DNA of 50,871 nt from Eubacterium sp. An11 (lineage in GTDB: Bacteria > Bacillota > Clostridia > Lachnospirales > Lachnospiraceae). Position 1 is the first letter of the stretch, and every line of letters starts with the position of its first letter. Below are positions 5,269-16,301 of the stretch, piece after piece. The stretch is from NCBI RefSeq assembly GCF_002161065.1, contig NZ_NFLV01000024.1, positions 1-50,871 of the forward strand, given 5' to 3'. The notes under the pieces were generated by a model, which searched no databases, was not told where the DNA came from, and worked only from the letters and a program-made list of their open reading frames with translations. Made by a program: the position numbers and the translations under genes.

Positions 5269-5295
5269 ATATGATCGTAATGGAAAGGAAATGTG

Positions 5296-7386
5296 ATGTG
5301 GAGAAAATTATGGAATTCTTCCGGCTGGAAGGTTCTGTGCTGTAATGTTATAACTGCTCTGGCTCTCAACCTTTTCCTGGAATGGATGGAAAGAAAATCC
5401 ATAAAAGAAGTGCTGGCGTTTATCAACGAAAGAACTTACGTTTTTCTTTTTAACGCGGCCATTCTCTTTATGTTTCTTTCCATCGTACTGCTTGTCAGAA
5501 AGAAAATATTTGTGTACACAGTCATCACAGCATGCTGGATTTTAATAGGACTGACCAACGGCATAGTTTTGAACGGACGAAAAACGCCGTTTACCGCAGT
5601 GGATCTGACTGTGGCAAAATCTATTCTGCCGGTGCTTAACAGCTATCTCGAGCTGTGGCAGATTGTGATGCTGGTGATTTTGATGGTGGCGGCCGTTATT
5701 TTTCTGGTCTGTCTGTGTCTGTATTCTCCGTCCAGCGGAGAATCCTTTAACAGGCGGGTCAATGTGCTGCTTGAGCTGGTACTGCTGGTTGCCTTTGGAA
5801 TATTTGCCTATGTGGGCGTGGGAAAGGGACAGCTGATCAGCAAGTTTGATAACCCGATTAACGGGTACAAAGATTACGGCGTTGCCTACGGGTTTTGTGT
5901 GACGGCTCTGGATACCGGCATTGACCGGCCGATCAATTACAGCCGAGACAGGGTCAATAAACTGAAAAATAAGATGGCTGACCTTCTTTCTGAGGAGGAA
6001 GCGGAAGAAAATGCGGAGGACAGCAGAGAGCCTAATATTATTTTTATCCAGCTGGAATCCTTTTTTGATCTGTCCCAGGTGAAAAATCTGGATATTTCAG
6101 AGGATCCGATTCCGTTTTTTCATCAGCTTCAGGAAAATACCACTTCCGGGCGGCTGCGGGTGCCGGTTTATGGAGCCGGAACCATCAATACGGAGTTTGA
6201 AGTCATCACTGGAATGAGTACAGCTTATTTCGGTACCGGAGAGTATCCTTATCGAAGTGTTCTCCAGAAGAAGACCTGCGAGAGCATTGCCTACTGGCTG
6301 AAGGATCTGTCTTATGAGAGCACAGTGATTCATAATAACAATGCATCTTTTTATGACCGCTATAAAGTATTTTCCAATTTGGGATTTGATAATTTTATCA
6401 CCATTGAAAACATGAAAGTAAAAAGCTGGACGGAGGCCGGCTGGGCGAAAGATGCGGTGCTTACCGATTACATCCTTGATACCATGGAAGAGACGGCTGA
6501 GAAAGATATTATTTATACCATTTCTGTCCAGGGACACGGAGATTATCCGACATCCAGCCAGGAGGGCTCGGAGATTCAGGTGACCGGCGAGGGATACAGC
6601 GAATCCTATCTGAATCAGGTGACATATTACGCCAATCAGATTCATGAGATGGATGCATTTTTGGAAGATCTCATCGGAAAACTGGAAAACTGCGGAGAGG
6701 ATACCATGGTCATCGCTTATGGGGACCATCTTCCGGGACTGGATTTTGAGACGGATGATCTGAAAGAAGGCAATAAATATGAGACCCCATATTTTATCTG
6801 GGATAACTTTGGTTATAACAGCAGCCACAAAAAAGAAGAGTCAGAGAACCTGAAGGCCTGGGATCTGGCTTCCAAAGTTCTTTCCCAGGTAAACATTCAC
6901 AGTGGAGTGATCAATCAGTTCCATCAAACTATGAAGGGGACCAGGAACGAGGGTAAGAACCTGAAGCTCCTGCAGTACGACATGCTTTACGGTGCGGATT
7001 TCTCCCATGAAGGGGAAGAGGAACTGGAGCCTACAACCTTGTGTTATAGTCTGAAGCCGGTCGAGGTGACAAAAGTCAAGGAAGATGACGGAAAATATTT
7101 GCTGCTGGGTGAGAATTTTAACGAATACAGTCGTGTGTACATTAATGGAATTCTGACCAATTCCACGCTGAAGAGCGATAAAGTTCTGGAAATCAAGGCC
7201 AGCGCATTGAAGGACGGAGATGAAATCACGATCCATCAGGTGAGCAAGACCAATAATAATATTACGCTGAACAAGTCTGAAGTATTTACCTTTGATCTGT
7301 CTCAGGCAGAACCGCTGTACAGGGATGATTCCTGGCAGAAAGCGGAGATCGATGACGAGAACATAGATATCTCATCGGAAAAATGA
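5296..7386 (+). CDS. LTA-synthase-family sulfatase with extra C-terminal domain
   Basis: A polytopic membrane enzyme of the LtaS type, which transfers glycerol-phosphate (or a related phospho-alcohol) to an envelope polymer. About five N-terminal helices (residues 10-190) are followed by an extracellular sulfatase-like domain beginning NIIFIQLESFF. The likely nucleophile threonine is in YGAGTINTEFE, and VQGHGDYP and AYGDHLPGL carry the metal ligands. After the sulfatase domain there is an extension of about 130 residues with a beta-rich, IPT/TIG-like pattern (YLLLGENFNEYSRVYING), which is absent from classical LtaS. The ATG at 5296 was chosen over the GTG at 5293 because AAAGGA lies 6 nt upstream of it. 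It is the last gene of the operon, ahead of a long terminator hairpin. Confidence 0.85.
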   Translation: MWRKLWNSSGWKVLCCNVITALALNLFLEWMERKSIKEVLAFINERTYVFLFNAAILFMFLSIVLLVRKKIFVYTVITACWILIGLTNGIVLNGRKTPFTAVDLTVAKSILPVLNSYLELWQIVMLVILMVAAVIFLVCLCLYSPSSGESFNRRVNVLLELVLLVAFGIFAYVGVGKGQLISKFDNPINGYKDYGVAYGFCVTALDTGIDRPINYSRDRVNKLKNKMADLLSEEEAEENAEDSREPNIIFIQLESFFDLSQVKNLDISEDPIPFFHQLQENTTSGRLRVPVYGAGTINTEFEVITGMSTAYFGTGEYPYRSVLQKKTCESIAYWLKDLSYESTVIHNNNASFYDRYKVFSNLGFDNFITIENMKVKSWTEAGWAKDAVLTDYILDTMEETAEKDIIYTISVQGHGDYPTSSQEGSEIQVTGEGYSESYLNQVTYYANQIHEMDAFLEDLIGKLENCGEDTMVIAYGDHLPGLDFETDDLKEGNKYETPYFIWDNFGYNSSHKKEESENLKAWDLASKVLSQVNIHSGVINQFHQTMKGTRNEGKNLKLLQYDMLYGADFSHEGEEELEPTTLCYSLKPVEVTKVKEDDGKYLLLGENFNEYSRVYINGILTNSTLKSDKVLEIKASALKDGDEITIHQVSKTNNNITLNKSEVFTFDLSQAEPLYRDDSWQKAEIDDENIDISSEK

Positions 7387-7504: not shown

Positions 7505-8218
7505 TTATTTCTGGTCTTCCTCCCACATACAGCTCATGAAATTTTGCTGTAATTCTTTATAGTAGGTGCGGCTGACCGGAATCTGGGTGCCGTCCGATAA
7601 AGTACAGAACTGACGGTTCATGGTGATGATATGTCTGCAGTTGACCAGAAAACTTCGGTGAGAGAAGCAGAACCAGTTCTCTACGGTATCTTTCAGATCG
7701 TGCAGTTTTTCCGTAGTTTTGTAAGAAGCATCTCTGGTATGAATCTCCGTATTTCTGAGCACCCGTTCCATGTAAAGGATATCTTTTTGAGGGATACGGG
7801 CGGAACTTTTTCCAAACTGAATGGAAAGATAAAAATGTTCCAGTTCCTTCAGACGGGCGATGGCCTTATGCAGCGCCTTGGGCAGATAGGTGTCTATCTG
7901 ACTTTTCAGGATAAAATAAATGTGAGAAGATTCATAAACCTGCGATGCGTAATCTACATAATTGGTAATATAAATAATCTGGCAATCCGGAAGCACGGAG
8001 GTGATATCCTTGGCGGTCTGGATTCCGGAAGAATCCCGCAGTTCAATGTCCATAAAGACAATCTGCGGTTCCACTTTTTGTTCCCGGACGGCAGTTAAAA
8101 TATCGGCGGCATCAGAAAAAGAAAGAACCTGCGCTTCCATGGGACTGCACTGCTCGATTTTCTGACTTATTTCTCTTGATGCGATGGGGTTGTCTTCACA
8201 GACAGCAATCGTCAACAT
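7505..8218 (-). CDS. LytTR-type response regulator
   Basis: A 237-residue transcription factor of the AgrA/ComE type. The receiver domain (about residues 1-120) has the acidic pair in CEDN and the phosphoacceptor Asp57 in IVFMDIEL. The LytTR DNA-binding domain (about 135-235) has ILYMER and the FSHRSFLVN and PVSRTYYKEL motifs. The start at 8218 follows AAAGGAG; an earlier in-frame ATG lacks this. It is the only response regulator in the window and lies at the downstream end of five membrane signalling genes on the same strand, so it is the likely output of that system. It ends at the shared terminator hairpin. Confidence 0.93.
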   Translation of the reverse strand: MLTIAVCEDNPIASREISQKIEQCSPMEAQVLSFSDAADILTAVREQKVEPQIVFMDIELRDSSGIQTAKDITSVLPDCQIIYITNYVDYASQVYESSHIYFILKSQIDTYLPKALHKAIARLKELEHFYLSIQFGKSSARIPQKDILYMERVLRNTEIHTRDASYKTTEKLHDLKDTVENWFCFSHRSFLVNCRHIITMNRQFCTLSDGTQIPVSRTYYKELQQNFMSCMWEEDQK

Positions 8219-8312
8219 GAAAAAGCTCCTTTCTGTTTCGTTTTTATTCTTCATAGATAAAGGACACTGCAGATGGATATTTTTCGCATTACAGTGTTAA
8301 AAAGCCACTATT

Positions 8313-8318
8313 ATTATA
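8313..8318 (-). promoter_or_regulatory. Possible -10 box in the 152-nt gap before the LytTR gene
   Basis: TATAAT (minus strand) lies about 95 nt upstream of the LytTR start. The -35 region (TTTCTT) is poor, as expected if the promoter needs an activator. No terminator is visible after the preceding gene, so readthrough from it is also possible. Confidence 0.4.
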
Positions 8319-8370
8319 CTAGAATTTCAAAAATTAAGAAACAGAAAAAAGGTGCAAATATGTCAGACTT

Positions 8371-9246
8371 TTATAGAAAATGTTGGATATATTTTCTTGC
8401 CTCATCATTGCGCCCTTCTTTCAGAAGAAGCGAAATGACCTGAAGATGACCTGTAACATCGTGATGCTGTTTACGTAATAAAAAAGTCTTTTTACGCAGT
8501 TGATCAAAGTCGGACATATTTTGTTCCAGGATTTTCTGCTTCTTTCGGTGAACATGGAAATTTTTCAGGATGCGCTGCAGTTCCCGGGCACCCTGGAAGA
8601 AGAGCACGGAAGATAAAAATATTCCTGCAAATACAAAGAACCAGCCTGCGGCGCCCATGTGTTCCGGAAATACATAAAGGACGCCGGTACCGATGAAAAA
8701 GGCAACCAAACCTAATTTGAATAGTGTATGTAAATTCATTTTCTGTATATAGTTGTTCCAGAGAAGAACAGCGAAAGGAGTGAAAATCGTCTGCACGATG
8801 ACCGGAGGGAAAATGAACAAAAAAAGGCGGACAGGGTCATTTTCCGGCGCGATCGTATTGGAAGAAATATTCAGCTCAAGCCCCAGAGAATAATTCACCA
8901 GATAATAGGCAATGCCCATGGTCAGTTCGATGCAGCCGGCATAGAGAAGGACAAACATGGTATTCTCAACATGGCGCAGGAAGCTGCCCTGGTACAGGAG
9001 CATACCTGCGAGAAAAGGGGAGAGGAACAGAATGATCTTATAGGATGCGGTGGTGACCTCTCCGGTCAGGAAAGTATAAAACAGGGGAATCAGTAAAAAA
9101 GGTATACTGAGTCCAAAAGGATGCCGGACCCGGGAGCGGGGCTGCATGGTCCTGACAGTGTAATAATATACGGACAGCTGATAGATAATATGAGATACGG
9201 CAAAAGACGCCACAAATAACTGAGAGGAAGATAAGTGCAATGTCAT
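8371..9246 (-). CDS. Seven-helix receptor ending in a phosphoacceptor helix, no ATPase (copy A)
   Basis: A 291-residue membrane protein. Seven hydrophobic segments are followed by a conserved block (GTGVLYVFPE, GWFFVFAGIFL), a charged coiled-coil and, at the very C-terminus, LRKQHHDVTGHLQ. The last resembles the H-box of AgrC/GHKL-type kinases (HDxxNHLxxI), with Gly in place of Asn. His262-Asp263 are the candidate acceptor pair. The protein stops 29 residues later, so there is no room for an ATPase domain. The start at 9246 follows AAAGGAG. It lies 81 nt downstream of a GHKL ATPase gene that lacks the acceptor His. I infer a receptor/phosphoacceptor half of a split kinase; the ligand is unknown. 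Copies B and C are paralogues. Confidence 0.75.
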   Translation of the reverse strand: MTLHLSSSQLFVASFAVSHIIYQLSVYYYTVRTMQPRSRVRHPFGLSIPFLLIPLFYTFLTGEVTTASYKIILFLSPFLAGMLLYQGSFLRHVENTMFVLLYAGCIELTMGIAYYLVNYSLGLELNISSNTIAPENDPVRLFLFIFPPVIVQTIFTPFAVLLWNNYIQKMNLHTLFKLGLVAFFIGTGVLYVFPEHMGAAGWFFVFAGIFLSSVLFFQGARELQRILKNFHVHRKKQKILEQNMSDFDQLRKKTFLLRKQHHDVTGHLQVISLLLKEGRNDEARKYIQHFL

Positions 9247-9303
9247 GGGAAAACTCCTTTGATATAAGTGTATTTTATGTGCGGGCGCCGGCAAAGCGTT
9301 ATA

Positions 9304-9322
9304 GGAACATTACCGACAGTAT
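9304..9322 (-). promoter_or_regulatory. Third, diverged copy of a TGTCGG motif
   Basis: In the gap between the ATPase gene and receptor A, the plus strand reads GGAACATTACCGACAGTAT. It shares GGAA and CCGACA with the two repeats upstream of the cluster (13164-13223), but the spacing between them is 4 bp shorter. It may be a binding site for the LytTR regulator or may be chance. Confidence 0.25.
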
Positions 9323-9327
9323 GGCAG

Positions 9328-10188
9328 TTAAGTAAAATCGATCATGATATCGGAGATAAATGTATCCCCGTGATCCTGCCACTGACAGACGCCGTCTCTC
9401 TTGCGCACAATTTCTTCGATGATGGACAGACCCAGTCCATGGTAGAATGTATCGGCCTTTGTGGTTGTATGGTCAAAGACCACAGCCGGATTTTTGGTGT
9501 TTTCCATATGGATAAAGAGAAAATTATTCTTGTAGTCGATGGAAAGTCTCAAAAAGGGGGACGGCTGACCGGAAGTCTCACAGCTTTCAATACCATTGTT
9601 AAGCAGATTGAAAAAGAGGCTGATAAAGGTGGGAGCCGGAATCCCGATTTTCTCAGGGAAAAGAATATCACAGGAAAAAGTGATGCCGAGATTGTGACAT
9701 TCCGTTTCCTTTCCATGAAGGATGACATCCAGAATATCGTTATCACAATAATGCTTATAACGTACGCTCTGAAAAGAAGAAGAAAAATCACCGCAGACGT
9801 GGCGGGCCTCCTCCAACTGTCCGTTTTCCAGCAAATGATCGATCTGCCGCAGATGTTCTTTTACATCTTCCATCTGTCTTTCCATATCTGCCTGGGAGGT
9901 GCGCAGACTCCGTTCCTGCCGGAGAGCAGCCCTGCGCTGCATTTCCAGATATTCCACATTTATCTTTGCGTAAAACTCCCGCAGAGAGATAAAGATAAAA
10001 GCGACAATGAACAATATAATAATGACGTAAATAAAGAAGAACAGCACAATAGAAATGTGCGTCCGGTACACATAAAGATAGTAGGCGAAAACGAAAAGCG
10101 GTATGGTCAGAAGCAGGGCTGCCAGGAGAAGACCCACCCGCCGGAGTTTCTGTTTTGATGTTGTCTTATCATTGGTACTTTTATCCAT
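9328..10188 (-). CDS. Membrane GHKL ATPase subunit lacking the acceptor histidine (copy A)
   Basis: A 286-residue protein with two membrane helices (about residues 18-40 and 45-68), a coiled-coil, a dimerisation-helix-like segment and a C-terminal GHKL ATPase domain. The N-box is NLLNNGIESC (from residue 194) and the G-box HGLGLSIIEE (about residue 250), with an MENTKNP motif between; these are the nucleotide- and Mg-binding elements and look intact. The segment EDVKEHLRQI aligns without gaps with HDVTGHLQVI of receptor A, placing Glu107 where the acceptor His should be. It therefore looks able to bind ATP but not to autophosphorylate in the usual way. The start at 10188 follows GGGAGGGG. It is a paralogue of copy B. 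Confidence 0.8.
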   Translation of the reverse strand: MDKSTNDKTTSKQKLRRVGLLLAALLLTIPLFVFAYYLYVYRTHISIVLFFFIYVIIILFIVAFIFISLREFYAKINVEYLEMQRRAALRQERSLRTSQADMERQMEDVKEHLRQIDHLLENGQLEEARHVCGDFSSSFQSVRYKHYCDNDILDVILHGKETECHNLGITFSCDILFPEKIGIPAPTFISLFFNLLNNGIESCETSGQPSPFLRLSIDYKNNFLFIHMENTKNPAVVFDHTTTKADTFYHGLGLSIIEEIVRKRDGVCQWQDHGDTFISDIMIDFT

Positions 10189-10222
10189 GGAACCCCTCCC
10201 GCTTTTGGTAGAATGAAATGAT

Positions 10223-10266
10223 AAACGTATCACTGTACGTTTTTTTATAAATCAAATACCATTATA
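10223..10266 (-). promoter_or_regulatory. Promoter -10 box and palindrome ahead of the second signalling module
   Basis: On the minus strand TATAAT (10266-10261) is followed by the palindrome AAACGTA/TACGTTT with a 6-nt spacer (10242-10223), about 35 nt before the ATPase A start. The -35 box is weak. The palindrome sits where an operator, or a hairpin in the early leader, could control the module. Confidence 0.45.
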
Positions 10267-10310
10267 ATCGATATCAGGAAAAGAGAAAAGGGAAAAATAA
10301 AGGAATAAAC

Positions 10311-10340
10311 GAGATAAAAAGAGCGGTCTTGCTGCCGCTC
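10311..10340 (-). terminator. Rho-independent terminator between the two signalling modules
   Basis: GAGCGG/CCGCTC with an 8-nt loop is followed on the minus strand by TTTTTATCTC. It ends the upstream module (ATPase B, receptors C and B) and separates it from ATPase A, receptor A and LytTR. Confidence 0.75.
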
Positions 10341-10382
10341 CATTTACTCTGACTGGGCAATCGGGAAGAAGATGCAGATCTT

Positions 10383-11264
10383 TTATAAAATTTTCAAAAG
10401 TTCACGAATATACTTTTGTGCCTCTACGGTTTTCCCCTCTGTTAAAAGATAGGAAATCGTCTGCAGATGCCCGGCGATATCGTGGCTCTGTCGTCGTAAG
10501 TGCAGATTCCGTTCTTTCACAGCTTTGTAATTGTCCAGATTTTTATAAAATATTTCTTTTTCTTTCTGGTGCAGATGAAAGGACATGCGTATCTGATGGA
10601 TTCCGCGGAAGAAGAGAAGAATCGAAAGCAATGTTCCCAGAAAGACAAAAATCCACCCGATTTTTCCCATAAACTGTGGAAAAACATACAAAACACCACT
10701 GCCCGACAGCGATGTGGCCAAAACGAGCTGAATCAGTATCTTCAAATTAATATATTGCACCGCCGTTTGCCACAGGCATATGAAAAAAGGCATAAGAAGA
10801 ATCTGCATTACAATGGGCAGACCGATAAAAATCAGTAAATCCACAGGATCATCCTTCGGGACAACAGGGTCTGCGGCAGAATGAACCTCTTGTTGAAGAA
10901 GAAACATCAGAGGATAATACAGAAGCCCCATGACAAACTCAACAATCCCCAGGCAGATCACGATGAAAAAATAATTTCCCAGACGCCTCCAGAAACGTGC
11001 TTTGTAAAGAAATATGCTGGCTGCCAGAGATGTACAGTAAAAAATAACCTTGAAAAAAGGGGACTGTGCGTCACCGGTAAATCCTGTATACAAAAGAAGA
11101 ATGCCCAGGAAGGGGAGACTGCGCAGAAAGGGCCTTTTTACAGAAAAACGTGTTGTAAGCGTCCGGCTGAAAAAGAAAACCATGGATGCCGCATAGCAAA
11201 GATGTGCGAACAGGTAGATGAGAGTGTTCAGTTGGGATGCGGAAGCGGTAAGTGTGGGTGACAA
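10383..11264 (-). CDS. Seven-helix receptor ending in a phosphoacceptor helix, no ATPase (copy B)
   Basis: The 293-residue product is a paralogue of copies A and C, with seven hydrophobic segments, the block GSGVLYVFPQ followed by GWIFVFLG, a charged coiled-coil and the terminal LRRQSHDIAGHLQ motif. His261-Asp262 are the candidate acceptor pair, and the chain ends 32 residues after the Asp-containing pair begins, without a catalytic domain. Translation appears to start at a TTG: AAAGGAG lies 7 nt upstream and no ATG fits. This Shine-Dalgarno overlaps the end of the preceding gene (18-nt gap), suggesting translational coupling. It is the last gene of its module, before a terminator. Confidence 0.75.
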   Translation of the reverse strand: MSPTLTASASQLNTLIYLFAHLCYAASMVFFFSRTLTTRFSVKRPFLRSLPFLGILLLYTGFTGDAQSPFFKVIFYCTSLAASIFLYKARFWRRLGNYFFIVICLGIVEFVMGLLYYPLMFLLQQEVHSAADPVVPKDDPVDLLIFIGLPIVMQILLMPFFICLWQTAVQYINLKILIQLVLATSLSGSGVLYVFPQFMGKIGWIFVFLGTLLSILLFFRGIHQIRMSFHLHQKEKEIFYKNLDNYKAVKERNLHLRRQSHDIAGHLQTISYLLTEGKTVEAQKYIRELLKIL

Positions 11265-11282
11265 TGGGGAGCTCCTTTCTTA

Positions 11283-12209
11283 TCATTTGCTCTGAGAATT
11301 TTTTTGGTGTTCAGTCGGCGGCGTATTTATCTCCTGCTTCAGCTCCTCAATATAAGTAAGCGCCTCTTCTGTTTTCCCTTCCGATATGAGGTAAGAAACC
11401 GCCTGCATGTGCCCGGTCAGGTCATGATGTTGTTTTCTAAGTTGAAGGCTTTCTTCCTGCTGTTTTTTGAAATCAGTCAGATGTTGTTTTAAGAGTTTCT
11501 GCTCTTTTTCCTGAAGATAGGATTTGCGGAATAATTTTTGGAGATTGATGATGCCCAGAAAAAATACGACTATGGACAGGAGTAGGCAGAGAAAGGCCAA
11601 AAACCATCCGACACGGCCAAATAAGTCGGGGAAAATATACGGGACACCGCTGAAACTGATGAAAGTCAGGAGACCAAACTGGATGATGAGTTTCAGGTTG
11701 ATTTTACATAAATATTTTTTCCATACGATAATTGCCAACGGTGTCAGCAGGAACTGGATGATAACGAAGGGGATTCCCGTCAGGCACAGTTTCTGGATGT
11801 CATGGGTGGAGGACAGAGTATTTGGGATAAAAGGAATACCGAAGCAAAGTTCCAGAATACCAATACAGTAAATATATACCAGTATATTTTCTGCCAACAG
11901 AGAATACGCAACGCCAAAGAAAAAATTACCGATGCGCTGCATGACCGTCTCTTTGTACAGAATTATGCATGCCAGAAACATGGAGCCGTACAGGAAGAAA
12001 ATGTGAGTGGGAGAGTGCACTTCTCCGGTAACTACTTTATAGCAGACTGGAATCAGCAGAAAAGGAAGGTTCTGTAGAACTGGATGAACTTTGGAAAAAC
12101 GAGGGGTCAACGTGTGGCGGTAGTAATATAAAACAGAGGCTTCATTTAATGCATGGGAAATAGCAAAAAATATGAAGTATGGTTCAAAGGGGGAAGTTTT
12201 TGGGAACAT
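11283..12209 (-). CDS. Seven-helix receptor ending in a phosphoacceptor helix, no ATPase (copy C)
   Basis: The 308-residue product is the third paralogue. Its membrane part is the most diverged (SGVPYIFPDLFG, GWFLAFLC), while the C-terminal LRKQHHDLTGHMQ motif is conserved, with His262-Asp263 as the candidate acceptor pair. It has a polar tail of about 20 residues beyond the second helix start that A and B lack, but still no ATPase domain. AAAGGAG precedes the ATG. It lies 60 nt after ATPase B and 18 nt before receptor B. Divergence in the membrane half with conservation of the acceptor helix is what receptors for different ligands feeding one output would show; this is inference. Confidence 0.75.
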   Translation of the reverse strand: MFPKTSPFEPYFIFFAISHALNEASVLYYYRHTLTPRFSKVHPVLQNLPFLLIPVCYKVVTGEVHSPTHIFFLYGSMFLACIILYKETVMQRIGNFFFGVAYSLLAENILVYIYCIGILELCFGIPFIPNTLSSTHDIQKLCLTGIPFVIIQFLLTPLAIIVWKKYLCKINLKLIIQFGLLTFISFSGVPYIFPDLFGRVGWFLAFLCLLLSIVVFFLGIINLQKLFRKSYLQEKEQKLLKQHLTDFKKQQEESLQLRKQHHDLTGHMQAVSYLISEGKTEEALTYIEELKQEINTPPTEHQKNSQSK

Positions 12210-12269
12210 AAATACTCCTTTCCGGGAAAATATAGAAATCTACAAAATTACCATGAAAATATTACATTG

Positions 12270-13139
12270 CTATCGGTATCGCAGCATAATATCAGATACA
12301 AAAGTAATCTCTTTGTCCTGCCAATGACAGGACCCGTCCCGCTGCCGGGCGGTTTCTTCTATAATGAGAAGGCCGAGACCGTGAGAAAAAGTATCGGGTT
12401 TGGTGGTGGTATGAGTAAACGTTACAGAAGGATTCTTTGAATTTTCCATGCGAATCAGCAGAAAATCTCCCTTGTAATTTACAGAGAGTTTCAAAAACAG
12501 ATTTTCCTGCCCGGAGGAAGTACATCCTTCTATACCATTATTCAGTAAATTAACAAATAAACTGATAAGGACAGGGGCTGGCAGCTGCATCTGTTCAGGT
12601 AAAAGAATTTGGCAGGAAAATGTGATGTCCAGTAAGTCGCACTCTGCTTTTTTTGTGTGGATAATTACATCGAGGATGTCATTTTTGCAGTAATGTTTAT
12701 AGCGGGTTCCCTGAAAATAAGAAGAAAACTGTGTACAGAGTTTCCTGGCATCTTCTGTTTTGTTTTTCTTCAAAAGGAGTTCCAATTTCGTAAAATGAGC
12801 AAGAGCAGTAGACATTTGTTCCTGCATTTGCTTCTGTGACTGAAGAAGGAATTGTTCTTGCCGTTTAGCGGCAATTTCCTGCGCCTGCAGATAATCATTG
12901 TCGATTTTTTTATAATATTCCTTTAACGAAATGTACACATATGCGCCGATAAAAAAGATAGGGATGGAATACACCAGGGTAGAAATGTACACCAGAGTAT
13001 AATCCTGTTCTGTAAAATCCTGGTAGGTATAAAAGTAAAAAATAGTCAAAGCTGCCGCAGTGATCAGCGATAGGATTGCGAAAATAAGACATTTTAATAA
13101 TTGCTTTTTTTGCTTTTGATGTTTTGATATGGATTTCAT
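12270..13139 (-). CDS. Membrane GHKL ATPase subunit lacking the acceptor histidine (copy B)
   Basis: A 289-residue paralogue of copy A with two membrane helices (about residues 16-37 and 48-71), a Gln-rich coiled-coil, and a GHKL ATPase domain with N-box NLLNNGIEGC (from residue 197) and G-box HGLGLLIIEE. In the gap-free helix alignment STALAHFTKL replaces HDVTGHLQVI, so Ser110 and Thr111 stand in place of the acceptor His-Asp. The shared motif RYKHYC(D/K)NDILDVI between coil and ATPase is strongly conserved in both copies and could be the docking surface for the receptors. It is the first gene of the cluster. Its ribosome binding site (AAGGGGAT) lies unusually far upstream, about 13 nt. Confidence 0.8.
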   Translation of the reverse strand: MKSISKHQKQKKQLLKCLIFAILSLITAAALTIFYFYTYQDFTEQDYTLVYISTLVYSIPIFFIGAYVYISLKEYYKKIDNDYLQAQEIAAKRQEQFLLQSQKQMQEQMSTALAHFTKLELLLKKNKTEDARKLCTQFSSYFQGTRYKHYCKNDILDVIIHTKKAECDLLDITFSCQILLPEQMQLPAPVLISLFVNLLNNGIEGCTSSGQENLFLKLSVNYKGDFLLIRMENSKNPSVTFTHTTTKPDTFSHGLGLLIIEETARQRDGSCHWQDKEITFVSDIMLRYR

Positions 13140-13156
13140 ATGATTTTTTGTATCCC

Positions 13157-13223
13157 CTTATATGGAAATAATGCTTCCGACAATGTATATATCTTTTTAG
13201 ACGGAAACAATACATCCGACAAT
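13157..13223 (-). promoter_or_regulatory. Two 21-bp direct repeats and promoter ahead of the signalling cluster
   Basis: Positions 13164-13184 and 13203-13223 are imperfect direct repeats that begin GGAAA and end CCGACAAT on the plus strand, 39 bp apart (about four helical turns). On the minus strand the proximal repeat supplies a -35-like TTGTCG, with TATAAG (13162-13157) 15-16 bp downstream. Repeats of this kind upstream of a LytTR-linked cluster are candidate regulator sites, although the repeat is longer than the classic 9-bp LytTR element. Confidence 0.5.
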
Positions 13224-13456
13224 ATCTGTAAAATTTCAGCAAATTTCTTAAAAGGATTATACATGAGTCCGGGGTGGCTTTGCAAGGAAAGGATGTAAAC
13301 AGTAGATTTACCCTTTATGAAAAGGAAGACAGCAGGTGGAAAATTAGCATAATTGTACAGAATATTTTTATGTTAGGAAAGAAATATTTGTGTTATACTT
13401 TACATATATAAACGAGATAGAAATTTGTAAAAATAAAACAATTATGTAAAAAACAG

Positions 13457-13485: not shown

Positions 13486-13537
13486 TGTATTGTCTTTAAG
13501 GAAGACAATACCCGGGAAACCGGAGAAAGGAGGAAAA

Positions 13538-13696
13538 ATGAGCGATATAATGACAGAAAAAGAAATGCAGACGGTCAAAATGTCTACATTATATCAGTTA
13601 CGGCTGATTATTGCCAATGGAGAAAAAGAGGAATATACGAAGGACGAAATCGTTGAGCTTTTGGATAAGATAGCAATGGCAAAAGAACAGGAATAG
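13538..13696 (+). CDS. 52-residue protein of unknown function
   Basis: A small soluble, charged protein beginning MSDIMTEKEMQ, followed by two predicted helices (STLYQLRLIIANG and DEIVELLDKIAMAKEQ) linked by a KEEYTKDE turn. It has no signal peptide or Gly-Gly leader motif, so it is not an obvious signalling peptide. Translation is well supported: AAAGGAGG lies 5 nt before the ATG, a 17-bp-spaced promoter lies upstream and a strong terminator downstream. It is divergent from the split-kinase cluster and convergent with the flavoprotein fragment. I do not recognise a characterised family. Confidence 0.7.
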   Translation: MSDIMTEKEMQTVKMSTLYQLRLIIANGEKEEYTKDEIVELLDKIAMAKEQE

Positions 13697-14791: not shown

Positions 14792-15124
14792 ATGGGAGAG
14801 AGATGCATTTCCAATGAAAGCCTCAGCAGCACAGGTTTCAGTTACACGCTGTCGCTGATCAATGGGAAATACAAAATGACGATTCTGTATACGCTGATGG
14901 AGTTCGGCGTCGTCCGTTTTAACGAGATGAAAAAATATATCGGCGGGATATCCTATAAAACTCTCAGTTCAACGCTGAAAGAACTGGAAGCGGATAAGCT
15001 GGTTCACCGGGAGGAATATCCGCAGATTCCGCCTAAAGTAGAATACAGTCTCACAGAGCGGGGCAAATCTCTGATTCCGATTCTGGACGGGATGTGTGAG
15101 TGGGGAGATAAAAACCGCCTGTAA
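14792..15124 (+). CDS. HxlR-family transcriptional regulator
   Basis: A 110-residue winged-helix DNA-binding protein. It has the HxlR hallmarks GKYKMTILYTL, RFNEMKKYIGGISYKTLSSTLKELE (recognition helix region) and VEYSLTERGKSL (wing). Members usually bind palindromes as dimers and often carry a redox- or electrophile-sensitive cysteine; here Cys5 near the N-terminus and a cysteine in GMCEWG near the C-terminus are candidates. AAAGGAG precedes the ATG. The adjoining tandem palindromes and divergent flavin reductase suggest it controls both genes. Confidence 0.92.
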   Translation: MGERCISNESLSSTGFSYTLSLINGKYKMTILYTLMEFGVVRFNEMKKYIGGISYKTLSSTLKELEADKLVHREEYPQIPPKVEYSLTERGKSLIPILDGMCEWGDKNRL

Positions 15125-15173
15125 TATAAAAGGGCAGTCCTTGTGCTGTCGGAGAAAAGAAAGGAGAAATTGT

Positions 15174-16301
15174 ATGAAACAACAAAATGTAGTGAAAAAA
15201 CTTACAATCCTGGCTGTTTTGGTCCTGGCAGTCTTCGGTACATTTCTTATGGCGAAGCCTGTGCGGGCAGCGGAGAGTGGACAGGTGACGGTGACCGGCT
15301 ATCGGTCATACAGCTATGCCTGGCAGGTGCTCTCTCTGGTGAATCAGGAAAGGGCAAAGGTGGGGCTCCCGGCTTTGACCATGGATCAGGAATTACTGGA
15401 TGCTGCCATGCAGCGGGCGTATGAGACGGCCGTATATTATTCTCATACAAGACCGGACGGAAGAGCGTGTTTTACGGCATCGAGTCTGACCGTGGGAGAA
15501 AACATTGCCGCCGGTCAGTTCAGCCCGGCCCATGTCATGAACTCCTGGATGAACTCAGAGGGACACAGAGCGAATATCCTTGATACAGGTTATGCCAGCA
15601 TCGGTATCGGCGCAGTCGAAGTCGATGGCAGATACTATTGGGTGCAGTGCTTTAGCGGAGCGACGTCACAGGAAGCAGACAGGGGAAATTACACGGATGG
15701 AAATGCGTCTGCGGCAGTATCGTTTGACCAGAATGTTGCGCCAATCCGCATAAGCCCGGGGAGCAGCACCATAAACCTTGGCAGCGGCAGCACGGCTTCC
15801 CTCACCTTTTCGGGAGTCTTCGGAACAATCCCGGTGACAAACCGGACGCTTCTGTTCCAAAGCTCCAATCCGGCGGTCTGCACCGTGGACGCCGGCGGCA
15901 ATCTTCGCGGCGCGGGCATCGGCACGGCAACGATCCGTCTGCTCTCACCAACCGACGGCAGCGTTCTGTCCTCCGCAAATGTGACCGTAACCCTTGATTT
16001 AAAGGAGACCTCCATCAAAAAATTGACGGCCGGCAAAAAGAAAATAACTATCAAGTGGAAGAAACAGAAGAAAAATACAGACGGCTACGAAATCCAGTAC
16101 TCCACAAACAAAAAATTCAAAAAAGCTGTCAAGACGGTGACTGTCAAAAACAACAAAAAGAACACGAAGACGATCAAAAAGCTGAAACGCGGAAAGAAAT
16201 ATTACGTGCGGATTCGTACCTACAAAGATGTATCTTCCAATGGGCAGACCATTCGCGTGTACTCTGACTGGTCAAAAAAGAAGGGTGTGAAGGTGAGATA
16301 G
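15174..16301 (+). CDS. Secreted CAP-domain protein with Ig-like and very basic FN3-like domains
   Basis: The 375-residue exported protein has a signal peptide (hydrophobic core about residues 10-27, cleavage likely after VRAAE-type sequence) and a CAP/SCP domain (about 50-165) with YSHTRPDG, GENIA and SWMNSEGHRANIL carrying the conserved His/Glu cavity. A Big_2-like Ig domain follows (about 185-280). The last 95 residues are a fibronectin-III-like module that is extremely Lys-rich (for example KKKITIKWKKQKK), which could bind anionic wall polymers. The start was set at the ATG after AAAGGAG at the signal peptide. Function is unknown; bacterial CAP proteins are usually surface or sporulation-associated. 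Confidence 0.88.
   Translation: MKQQNVVKKLTILAVLVLAVFGTFLMAKPVRAAESGQVTVTGYRSYSYAWQVLSLVNQERAKVGLPALTMDQELLDAAMQRAYETAVYYSHTRPDGRACFTASSLTVGENIAAGQFSPAHVMNSWMNSEGHRANILDTGYASIGIGAVEVDGRYYWVQCFSGATSQEADRGNYTDGNASAAVSFDQNVAPIRISPGSSTINLGSGSTASLTFSGVFGTIPVTNRTLLFQSSNPAVCTVDAGGNLRGAGIGTATIRLLSPTDGSVLSSANVTVTLDLKETSIKKLTAGKKKITIKWKKQKKNTDGYEIQYSTNKKFKKAVKTVTVKNNKKNTKTIKKLKRGKKYYVRIRTYKDVSSNGQTIRVYSDWSKKKGVKVR

Follow-up and report, generated by a model that had tools for sequence, protein, structure and literature searches.

A putative split histidine kinase in Eubacterium sp. An11: receptors without an ATPase domain beside GHKL proteins without an acceptor histidine

Introduction

Histidine kinases of the AgrC/ComD type carry the phosphoacceptor histidine and the ATPase domain in one chain. 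The characterised natural split kinases known to us are split CheA proteins. CheA3/CheA4 of Rhodobacter sphaeroides is the established split kinase, in which CheA3 is labelled only in the presence of CheA4 and ATP, according to the part of the source available to us (PMC3591291). Here we describe a six-gene cluster of Eubacterium sp. An11, located on a stretch of 50,871 nucleotides (contig NZ_NFLV01000024.1, positions 1 to 50,871; hereafter 'the window'). Three receptor-like proteins of the cluster have an acceptor histidine and no ATPase domain, two membrane-anchored GHKL proteins have an ATPase domain and no acceptor histidine, and a LytTR response regulator is encoded by the last gene. We propose that receptors and GHKL proteins probably constitute a natural split, hetero-oligomeric kinase working in trans.

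For CheA proteins, the available text counts 11 split versus 470 complete ones, reports 1556 of 42417 HisKA proteins to be without an ATPase domain, and predicts split kinases among HisKA proteins (PMC3591291). A second case is PilL-N/PilL-C (Hik36/Hik43) of Synechocystis, a split cheA homologue whose interaction was seen by bacterial two-hybrid analysis, again as far as the source was accessible (PMC7656254). A first-pass annotation of the window, made from the sequence letters, had cited CheA3/CheA4 as precedent, which is real, and knew of no described LytTR system of the present layout. Among the matches listed, we likewise found none in the open-licence literature, to which our search was confined (subscription papers and preprints lay outside it).

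Results

All six genes lie on the minus strand and are transcribed in the order A2-R3-R2-A1-R1-LytTR regulator, separated by 60, 18, 194, 81 and 152 bases. Gene coordinates and reading frames proved correct as first annotated. The six frames are open without inner stops, and a ribosome-binding-site-like stretch lies close upstream of five of the six starts, that of A2 being weaker and further off.

The receptor subunits are R1 (8371-9246, 291 residues), R2 (10383-11264, 293 residues, TTG start) and R3 (11283-12209, 308 residues). Each has an HD phosphoacceptor motif (His262 in R1, His261 in R2, His262 in R3), and a Pfam search detected no ATPase domain in any of them. SPOB_a was matched by all three; only R1 (31.2 bits) exceeds the curated cut-off of 28.1 bits, R2 (23.8 bits) and R3 (24.8 bits) remaining below it. 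The chains continue for 29, 32 and 46 residues after the acceptor histidine of R1, R2 and R3, respectively. The HD motif and the missing ATPase domain thus stand as first described, whereas a tail of 'about 30' residues is too short for R3. The receptors had first been described as seven-helix proteins. An AlphaFold model of R1 (mean pLDDT 76.1; six aligned rows) has a plausible seven-helix body with a long helix leading to HD; hydropathy finds six, five and five membrane segments in R1, R2 and R3. When the R1 model was compared with the PDB using Foldseek, no match at E 0.001 or better was obtained. HD is invariant across the 15 receptor-only rows of the receptor alignment A3, the receptor search profile having been built with R2 and R3 included. 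Against solved structures, the A3 receptor profile matched the AgrC kinase module weakly, at E 0.25 and ranked below unrelated repeat proteins.

The two paralogous ATPase subunits, A1 (9328-10188, 286 residues) and A2 (12270-13139, 289 residues, the first gene of the cluster), match HATPase_c_5 (PF14501) with 62.9 and 54.9 bits at a cut-off of 22. Both retain NLLNNGIE and HGLG boxes, and hydropathy finds two membrane segments in each. In a profile of 59 ordinary kinases the acceptor column is histidine in 59 of 59 members; at this position A1 has Glu and A2 has Ser. Pfam, hydropathy and profile alignment agree on what had been read from the sequence by the first-pass annotation, two-helix proteins with intact GHKL N- and G-boxes whose acceptor histidine is gone. 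The A4 profile found HK853-type kinases among solved structures, weakly (E about 0.0085). In an ungapped reading the acceptor helix of R1, RKQHHDVTGHLQVISLLLKEG, overlies ERQMEDVKEHLRQIDHLLENG of A1, and the receptor profile matches A1 across its membrane and hairpin part (E 1e-7). Given this overlay and match, A looks like a kinase minus its front half and the histidine, and R like a kinase minus its back half.

We searched for the ATPase in 99 near relatives at E 1e-20 or better and found it in five genomes including that of An11, the others being G020, G022, G017 and G049. G020 has the same A2-R3-R2-A1-R1-regulator order, G022 has an R-A-regulator set adjoining the same sulfatase-domain neighbour, and in G017 such a set lies in a different neighbourhood. 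One of the two ATPase matches in G049 is part of a fused chain, which a second fused chain adjoins; the other is a full-length protein.

Receptor profiles were run on 397 family, 392 order and 291 class genomes, these sets overlapping. Only six to eight candidates were scored per genome and the counts cover the matches listed, so more split loci may exist. Short-frame receptor matches were read individually, with the exception of G085 and G590, which have inner stops. The short-frame candidates L062, L064, L067-L073, L132-L134, L139-L143, L197-L202 and L204 turned out to be complete kinases with an acceptor histidine and were discarded, and two G513 loci, which reach the ends of their contigs and could be full-length kinases cut short there, were left uncounted. 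Among the matches listed, 16 receptor-only loci had readable surroundings. At 14 of these, from at least ten genera, the receptor gene is adjacent to a gene for a GHKL protein without HD and to a LytTR gene (G000, G020, G022, G017, G166, G304, G453, G331, G180, G244, G718, G712, G727 and G307). The LytTR regulator gene adjoins the pair in 14 of 14 loci, and the N and G box residues are conserved among the neighbouring GHKL proteins. The co-occurrence of the two families, set beforehand as a test of the split, was thus borne out. As expected of a split kinase, a protein with the acceptor histidine and without ATPase is found with an ATPase partner lacking the acceptor, and the partners are linked in several genomes. 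Receptors outnumber ATPases at six of the 14 loci: two have a ratio of 3:2, three have 2:1 and one has 4:1. G307 has four receptor-only paralogues, reading RHD, beside a full-length receptor-GHKL paralogue with RRD. The G166 locus has a second receptor gene (L060 5962-6848); it lies just upstream of the ATPase gene and contains an interrupting stop.

As a control we took HATPase_c_5 matches in 40 family genomes and hand-picked 40 among those listed, 20 short-frame and 20 long-frame. One was a fragment; the acceptor histidine is present, as HD or HE, in 39 of the 39 evaluable proteins. Proteins whose histidine state was already known were kept outside the control: A1 and A2 of the window, two fused chains of G049, G049:C14 (without the histidine), and G054:C18 and C18 of the An11 genome (both with it). 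The histidine is missing at 14 of the 15 loci with a GHKL neighbour and in 0 of 39 controls (Fisher p 4.6e-12); with G017 counted against and G049:C14 added to the controls, p is 9.7e-10, and a rough comparison of 9/10 with 1/40 gives 3.9e-8. Because the loci share ancestry and are not independent, these p values are only a guide. The An11 genome has at least eight other HATPase_c_5 matches, and all seven that were read have the acceptor histidine. We also noticed a recurring set at L004 73-2112 (C18 of the An11 genome), L158 1195-3257 and L203 193-3621, in which one or two long membrane proteins lie beside a short complete kinase with one membrane helix. By eye, the long proteins have a kinase-like layout with neither acceptor histidine nor intact ATP boxes; a LytTR gene adjoins the L158 and L203 sets.

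Both halves occur in a single chain in four fused proteins of three genera (G049, 590 and 600 residues; G194, 564 residues; G172, 589 residues). A receptor with HD is followed by one or two further membrane helices (hydropathy) and a GHKL domain with a hairpin that by eye lacks HD, and a LytTR gene lies beside each of the four. A1 residues 32 to 284 align with a G049 chain, with E 4e-24 for the pair, and R1 aligns with the acceptor part of the G049 chain (34% over 73 residues). The existence of such chains suggests that the receptor half and the GHKL half form a unit.

The proteins A1 and A2 have lost the acceptor histidine and kept the GHKL boxes in the manner of DivL, which makes a DivL-like pseudokinase a live rival to the split kinase. 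On that reading the A proteins would bind nucleotide or the regulator and modulate another process, and the regulator would receive its phosphate from an ordinary kinase encoded at a different place in the genome. No receptor partner without an ATPase is known to us for DivL. Seven histidine-bearing HATPase_c_5 proteins of the An11 genome could supply the phosphate, and GHKL proteins without the histidine do exist without a receptor-only partner (G049:C14, L158). In the accessible text on DivL, Tyr replaces the acceptor histidine, the H, N, G1, F and G2 boxes are kept and the protein can act without kinase activity (PMC4211667). What this explanation leaves unaccounted for are the fusions and the mutual loss: the missing halves are complementary at 14 of 16 loci, beside a LytTR gene, and they are fused in one chain elsewhere. 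We regard it as the main rival, and as unlikely.

The natural fusions, and receptor and ATPase genes that overlap or touch in G304 and G180, would also fit a kinase made as one chain after all, its halves being linked through frameshifting or read-through. The A2-R3-R2-A1-R1 order of the window with its gaps of 18-194 bases speaks against such a chain, as does the position of the ATPase gene ahead of the receptor gene in G453 and G017, and we give this idea very little credence.

We wondered whether the receptors might be frameshifted or truncated remnants of full-length kinases, left by decay or created by assembly, an outcome named beforehand as speaking against a split kinase. Relative to the CHKCI004 orthologues (locus L018; protein identity 69-82%), omega is 0.13 for R1, 0.15 for R2, 0.084 for A1 and 0.119 for A2; dN is 0.106 for R3 and about 0.10 for the regulator, dS being saturated for both. 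Four genomes of the genus have unbroken frames for R, A and the regulator. In 25 receptor-only proteins the tails after the histidine measure 29-56 residues (median 36), compared with a median tail of 183 for 59 ordinary kinases, and a truncation zone shared by separate lineages argues for a working module. Decay does take place in such loci, as in the stop-interrupted second receptor gene of G166 and a G955 regulator in two frames. Against remnants stand the six unbroken frames of the window, a G020 cluster of identical gene content and order, and the R-A-regulator sets of G022 and G017, which are intact as well. The omega values, 0.08-0.15 where computable, and the truncation zone common to several lineages point the same way, and this alternative is close to refuted.

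Quick trees were built for both families. In the receptor tree (62 rows), forcing the 25 receptor-only rows into one clade is rejected (p-AU 9.3e-36). The tree has eight changes of the receptor-only label, of which the starred branches force four, be they gains or losses. In a first version of this tree, the G307 receptors group with their own RRD protein (support 100) and the G398 receptor groups with its own intact kinase (support 98). For the GHKL tree, four long-branched ordinary rows were dropped and L090 (the G244 ATPase) was scored as lacking the histidine. Here the window ATPases fall into an unstarred group of 15 rows (support 83) that also contains the ATPases of G020, G022, G017, G304, G712, G166, G718 and G331, the fusions of G049 and G194, and G049:C14; six other proteins without the histidine scatter. 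The GHKL tree needs seven changes and does not reject that the His-less ATPases arose only once (p-AU 0.075). As the trees are quick and have long branches, we conclude from these sequences that the receptor-only form was reached along more than one path, and put no number on the gains. What looks like a transition series runs from G398, with an intact kinase and an extra receptor, through G307, with a His-less kinase and four receptors, to the loci with a separate ATPase subunit.

The last gene (7505-8218, minus strand) encodes the single LytTR regulator of the first-pass annotation, a protein of 237 residues with receiver and DNA-binding domains (Pfam Response_reg, 43 bits; LytTR, 62.3 bits). 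A longer open reading frame starts at 8254. By eye, the phosphorylation residues of the regulator (ED, D, T and K) are present, and its relatives adjoin R and A genes in L018, L025 and L026. The cluster is adjoined by a gene for a sulfatase-domain protein, lipoteichoic-acid-synthase-like by eye (5293-7386), that is kept in G020 and G022; a further neighbour, a CAP/fn3 protein (15096-16301), is kept in G020. A link of the regulon to the cell wall is possible in view of these two neighbours.

We looked for a peptide signal around the cluster. AgrB (PF04647) had no match in the An11 genome, in a search whose sensitivity is unproven as it matched in 3 of 14 control genomes and in none over the cut-off. 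By eye, no GG-leader or AgrD-like open reading frame was recognised among the small ones in the cluster gaps. The agr arrangement, AgrB and AgrD encoded with the kinase, is thus not seen here. The best conserved small open reading frame encodes a 52-residue protein (13538-13696, plus strand), is divergent from A2 and has no Pfam or NCBIfam match. Its product is identical in G020 despite eight changed codons and 96% identical in G022 with 25 changed codons. It occurs in 3 of 24 genomes of the genus (G000, G020 and G022) and in 2 of 249 further family genomes (G191 and G036). The G191 relative lies beside unrelated genes such as a GroEL-like one; the G036 neighbourhood was barely read. We dropped the 52-residue protein as a pheromone candidate since it is missing from G017, which has the split pair, and since its G191 copy has unrelated neighbours. 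The gaps of the CHKCI004 cluster contain two small antisense frames of 47 and 45 residues (L018 5702-5845 and 7106-7243, minus strand), unmatched among the small frames of the window gaps.

Upstream of A2, TCCGACAAT occurs twice. It was rejected as a binding site: with one mismatch allowed, the window has 12 occurrences versus 15.2 expected by chance. Two 39-base direct repeats (72% alike) lie upstream of A2 at 13151-13228, and an inverted repeat, GTATTGTCTT/AAGACAATAC, precedes the gene of the 52-residue protein at 13487-13511, with paired changes in G022 by eye.

Discussion

At the level of sequence, the case for a split kinase consists of complementary loss of parts, co-location, purifying selection, fusions and truncation within one zone in separate lineages. 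Complex formation, phosphorylation in trans, phosphotransfer and receptor sharing are what we infer from it. This evidence favours the assembly of the two halves into a kinase in trans that the first-pass annotation had put forward. In the proposed mechanism, each receptor would sense a signal via its membrane part, and its phosphorylated histidine would sit on the first helix of a DHp hairpin that has been shortened. Each A subunit would combine a two-membrane-helix anchor, a DHp-like hairpin without the histidine and a complete GHKL domain, and would be unable to autophosphorylate at the usual site. R and A might assemble side by side in the membrane, probably via a shared or mixed four-helix DHp bundle, where A would bind ATP and phosphorylate the histidine of R in trans. 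From R the phosphate would move on to the LytTR regulator encoded next to it.

Several receptors may share one or two A subunits, in which case different signals may feed one regulator. That receptors and ATPases are interchangeable modules is plausible, given the surplus of receptors at six of the 14 loci. We further speculated that the family contains a modular class of receptor kinases, reached by more than one evolutionary path, in which acceptor-only receptors share one or two membrane ATPase subunits, several signals are integrated on one LytTR regulator, and receptors can be gained without gaining a kinase; in our judgement the arguments for and against this wider idea are evenly balanced. 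Such sharing of kinase subunits by receptors would be akin to cytokine receptors sharing Janus kinases.

A number of observations weigh against a split kinase. Intact N and G boxes are, by analogy with DivL, no proof of kinase activity. The AlphaFold model of A1 (four aligned rows; mean pLDDT 51.6) is unusable and lends a complex no structural support. In the four fusions the kinase profile left the acceptor helix of the second module unaligned, the absence of HD there being judged by eye. The acceptor column of G017 is ambiguous, as the profile gives His via an insert of about eight residues and the ungapped alignment gives Asn, which lowers the strict count of loci to 13; the G453 ATPase has a weak G-box. 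The full-length GHKL protein G049:C14 (L029 254-1600) reads RQFRDE in the HD region, and the 8 kb read there showed no LytTR gene and no receptor-only gene; degenerate GHKL-like proteins without the histidine adjoin complete kinases in L004, L158 and L203. The receptor-only gene of G398 adjoins an intact full-length kinase. At G955 (L196 3031-5586) two receptor-only genes have no GHKL gene within the 9 kb read and the regulator is broken over two frames; either this locus is decayed or the partner is encoded elsewhere.

The G955 arrangement would fit receptors that serve as phosphatases or phosphate sinks for the regulator, with A as an independent regulator of the receptors. The existence of MaeK makes a phosphatase role conceivable by analogy (PMC5457438, available in part), the step from MaeK to the receptors being our own. 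This explanation has no account of why the neighbouring GHKL proteins lack the acceptor histidine, why their N and G boxes are conserved or why fusions exist, and we hold it to be quite improbable.

If the split kinase is real, two questions become directly testable. One is whether a single kinase subunit can act in trans for several receptors; the other is whether the split arrangement produces sharp or bistable responses as modelled for CheA3/CheA4. There is also a warning for annotation, since a truncated kinase may be functional even where it lacks the ATPase domain.

How does the cluster compare with described systems? With the AgrC/ComD type (HPK10), as we know this family, it has in common a polytopic receptor, an acceptor helix resembling SPOB_a (above the curated cut-off in R1 only), HATPase_c_5 and a LytTR gene alongside. 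It differs in that acceptor hairpin and HATPase_c_5 are found on separate chains rather than in one.

As in CheA3/CheA4, acceptor histidine and ATPase reside on different proteins. CheA3/CheA4, however, belongs to a cytoplasmic chemotaxis cluster with a P1 acceptor domain and CheY6, in the text available to us (PMC3591291), whereas the present cluster has membrane receptors, SPOB_a/DHp-type acceptors, GHKL HATPase_c_5 and a LytTR transcription factor. The six cluster proteins gave no Pfam match up to E 1 to the Hpt P1 or to the P3/P4/P5 CheA domains. PilL-N/PilL-C resembles the cluster in that two genes together encode one kinase; it is a split CheA of a pilus and phototaxis cluster, and the accessible portion of its description has no LytTR regulator (PMC7656254).

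DivL of Caulobacter is similar in keeping DHp and GHKL with the acceptor histidine replaced; it has Tyr there, contains PAS domains and reads DivK~P, in the portion of the source at hand (PMC4211667). MaeK of Lactobacillales is comparable as a sensor kinase protein whose ATP-dependent kinase activity does not work, yet it belongs to a citrate-family system, and the part of its description at our disposal mentions no partner GHKL protein (PMC5457438). In EnvZ, the ATPase and the histidine domain work on separate polypeptides after artificial splitting, a system that is engineered and not natural according to the accessible text (PMC3591291). The prior basis for split ordinary sensor kinases in that text was the engineered EnvZ and the database prediction among HisKA proteins (PMC3591291). 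What the present loci would add is a natural family from at least ten genera with co-located partners, and with fusions as a guide to the joined form.

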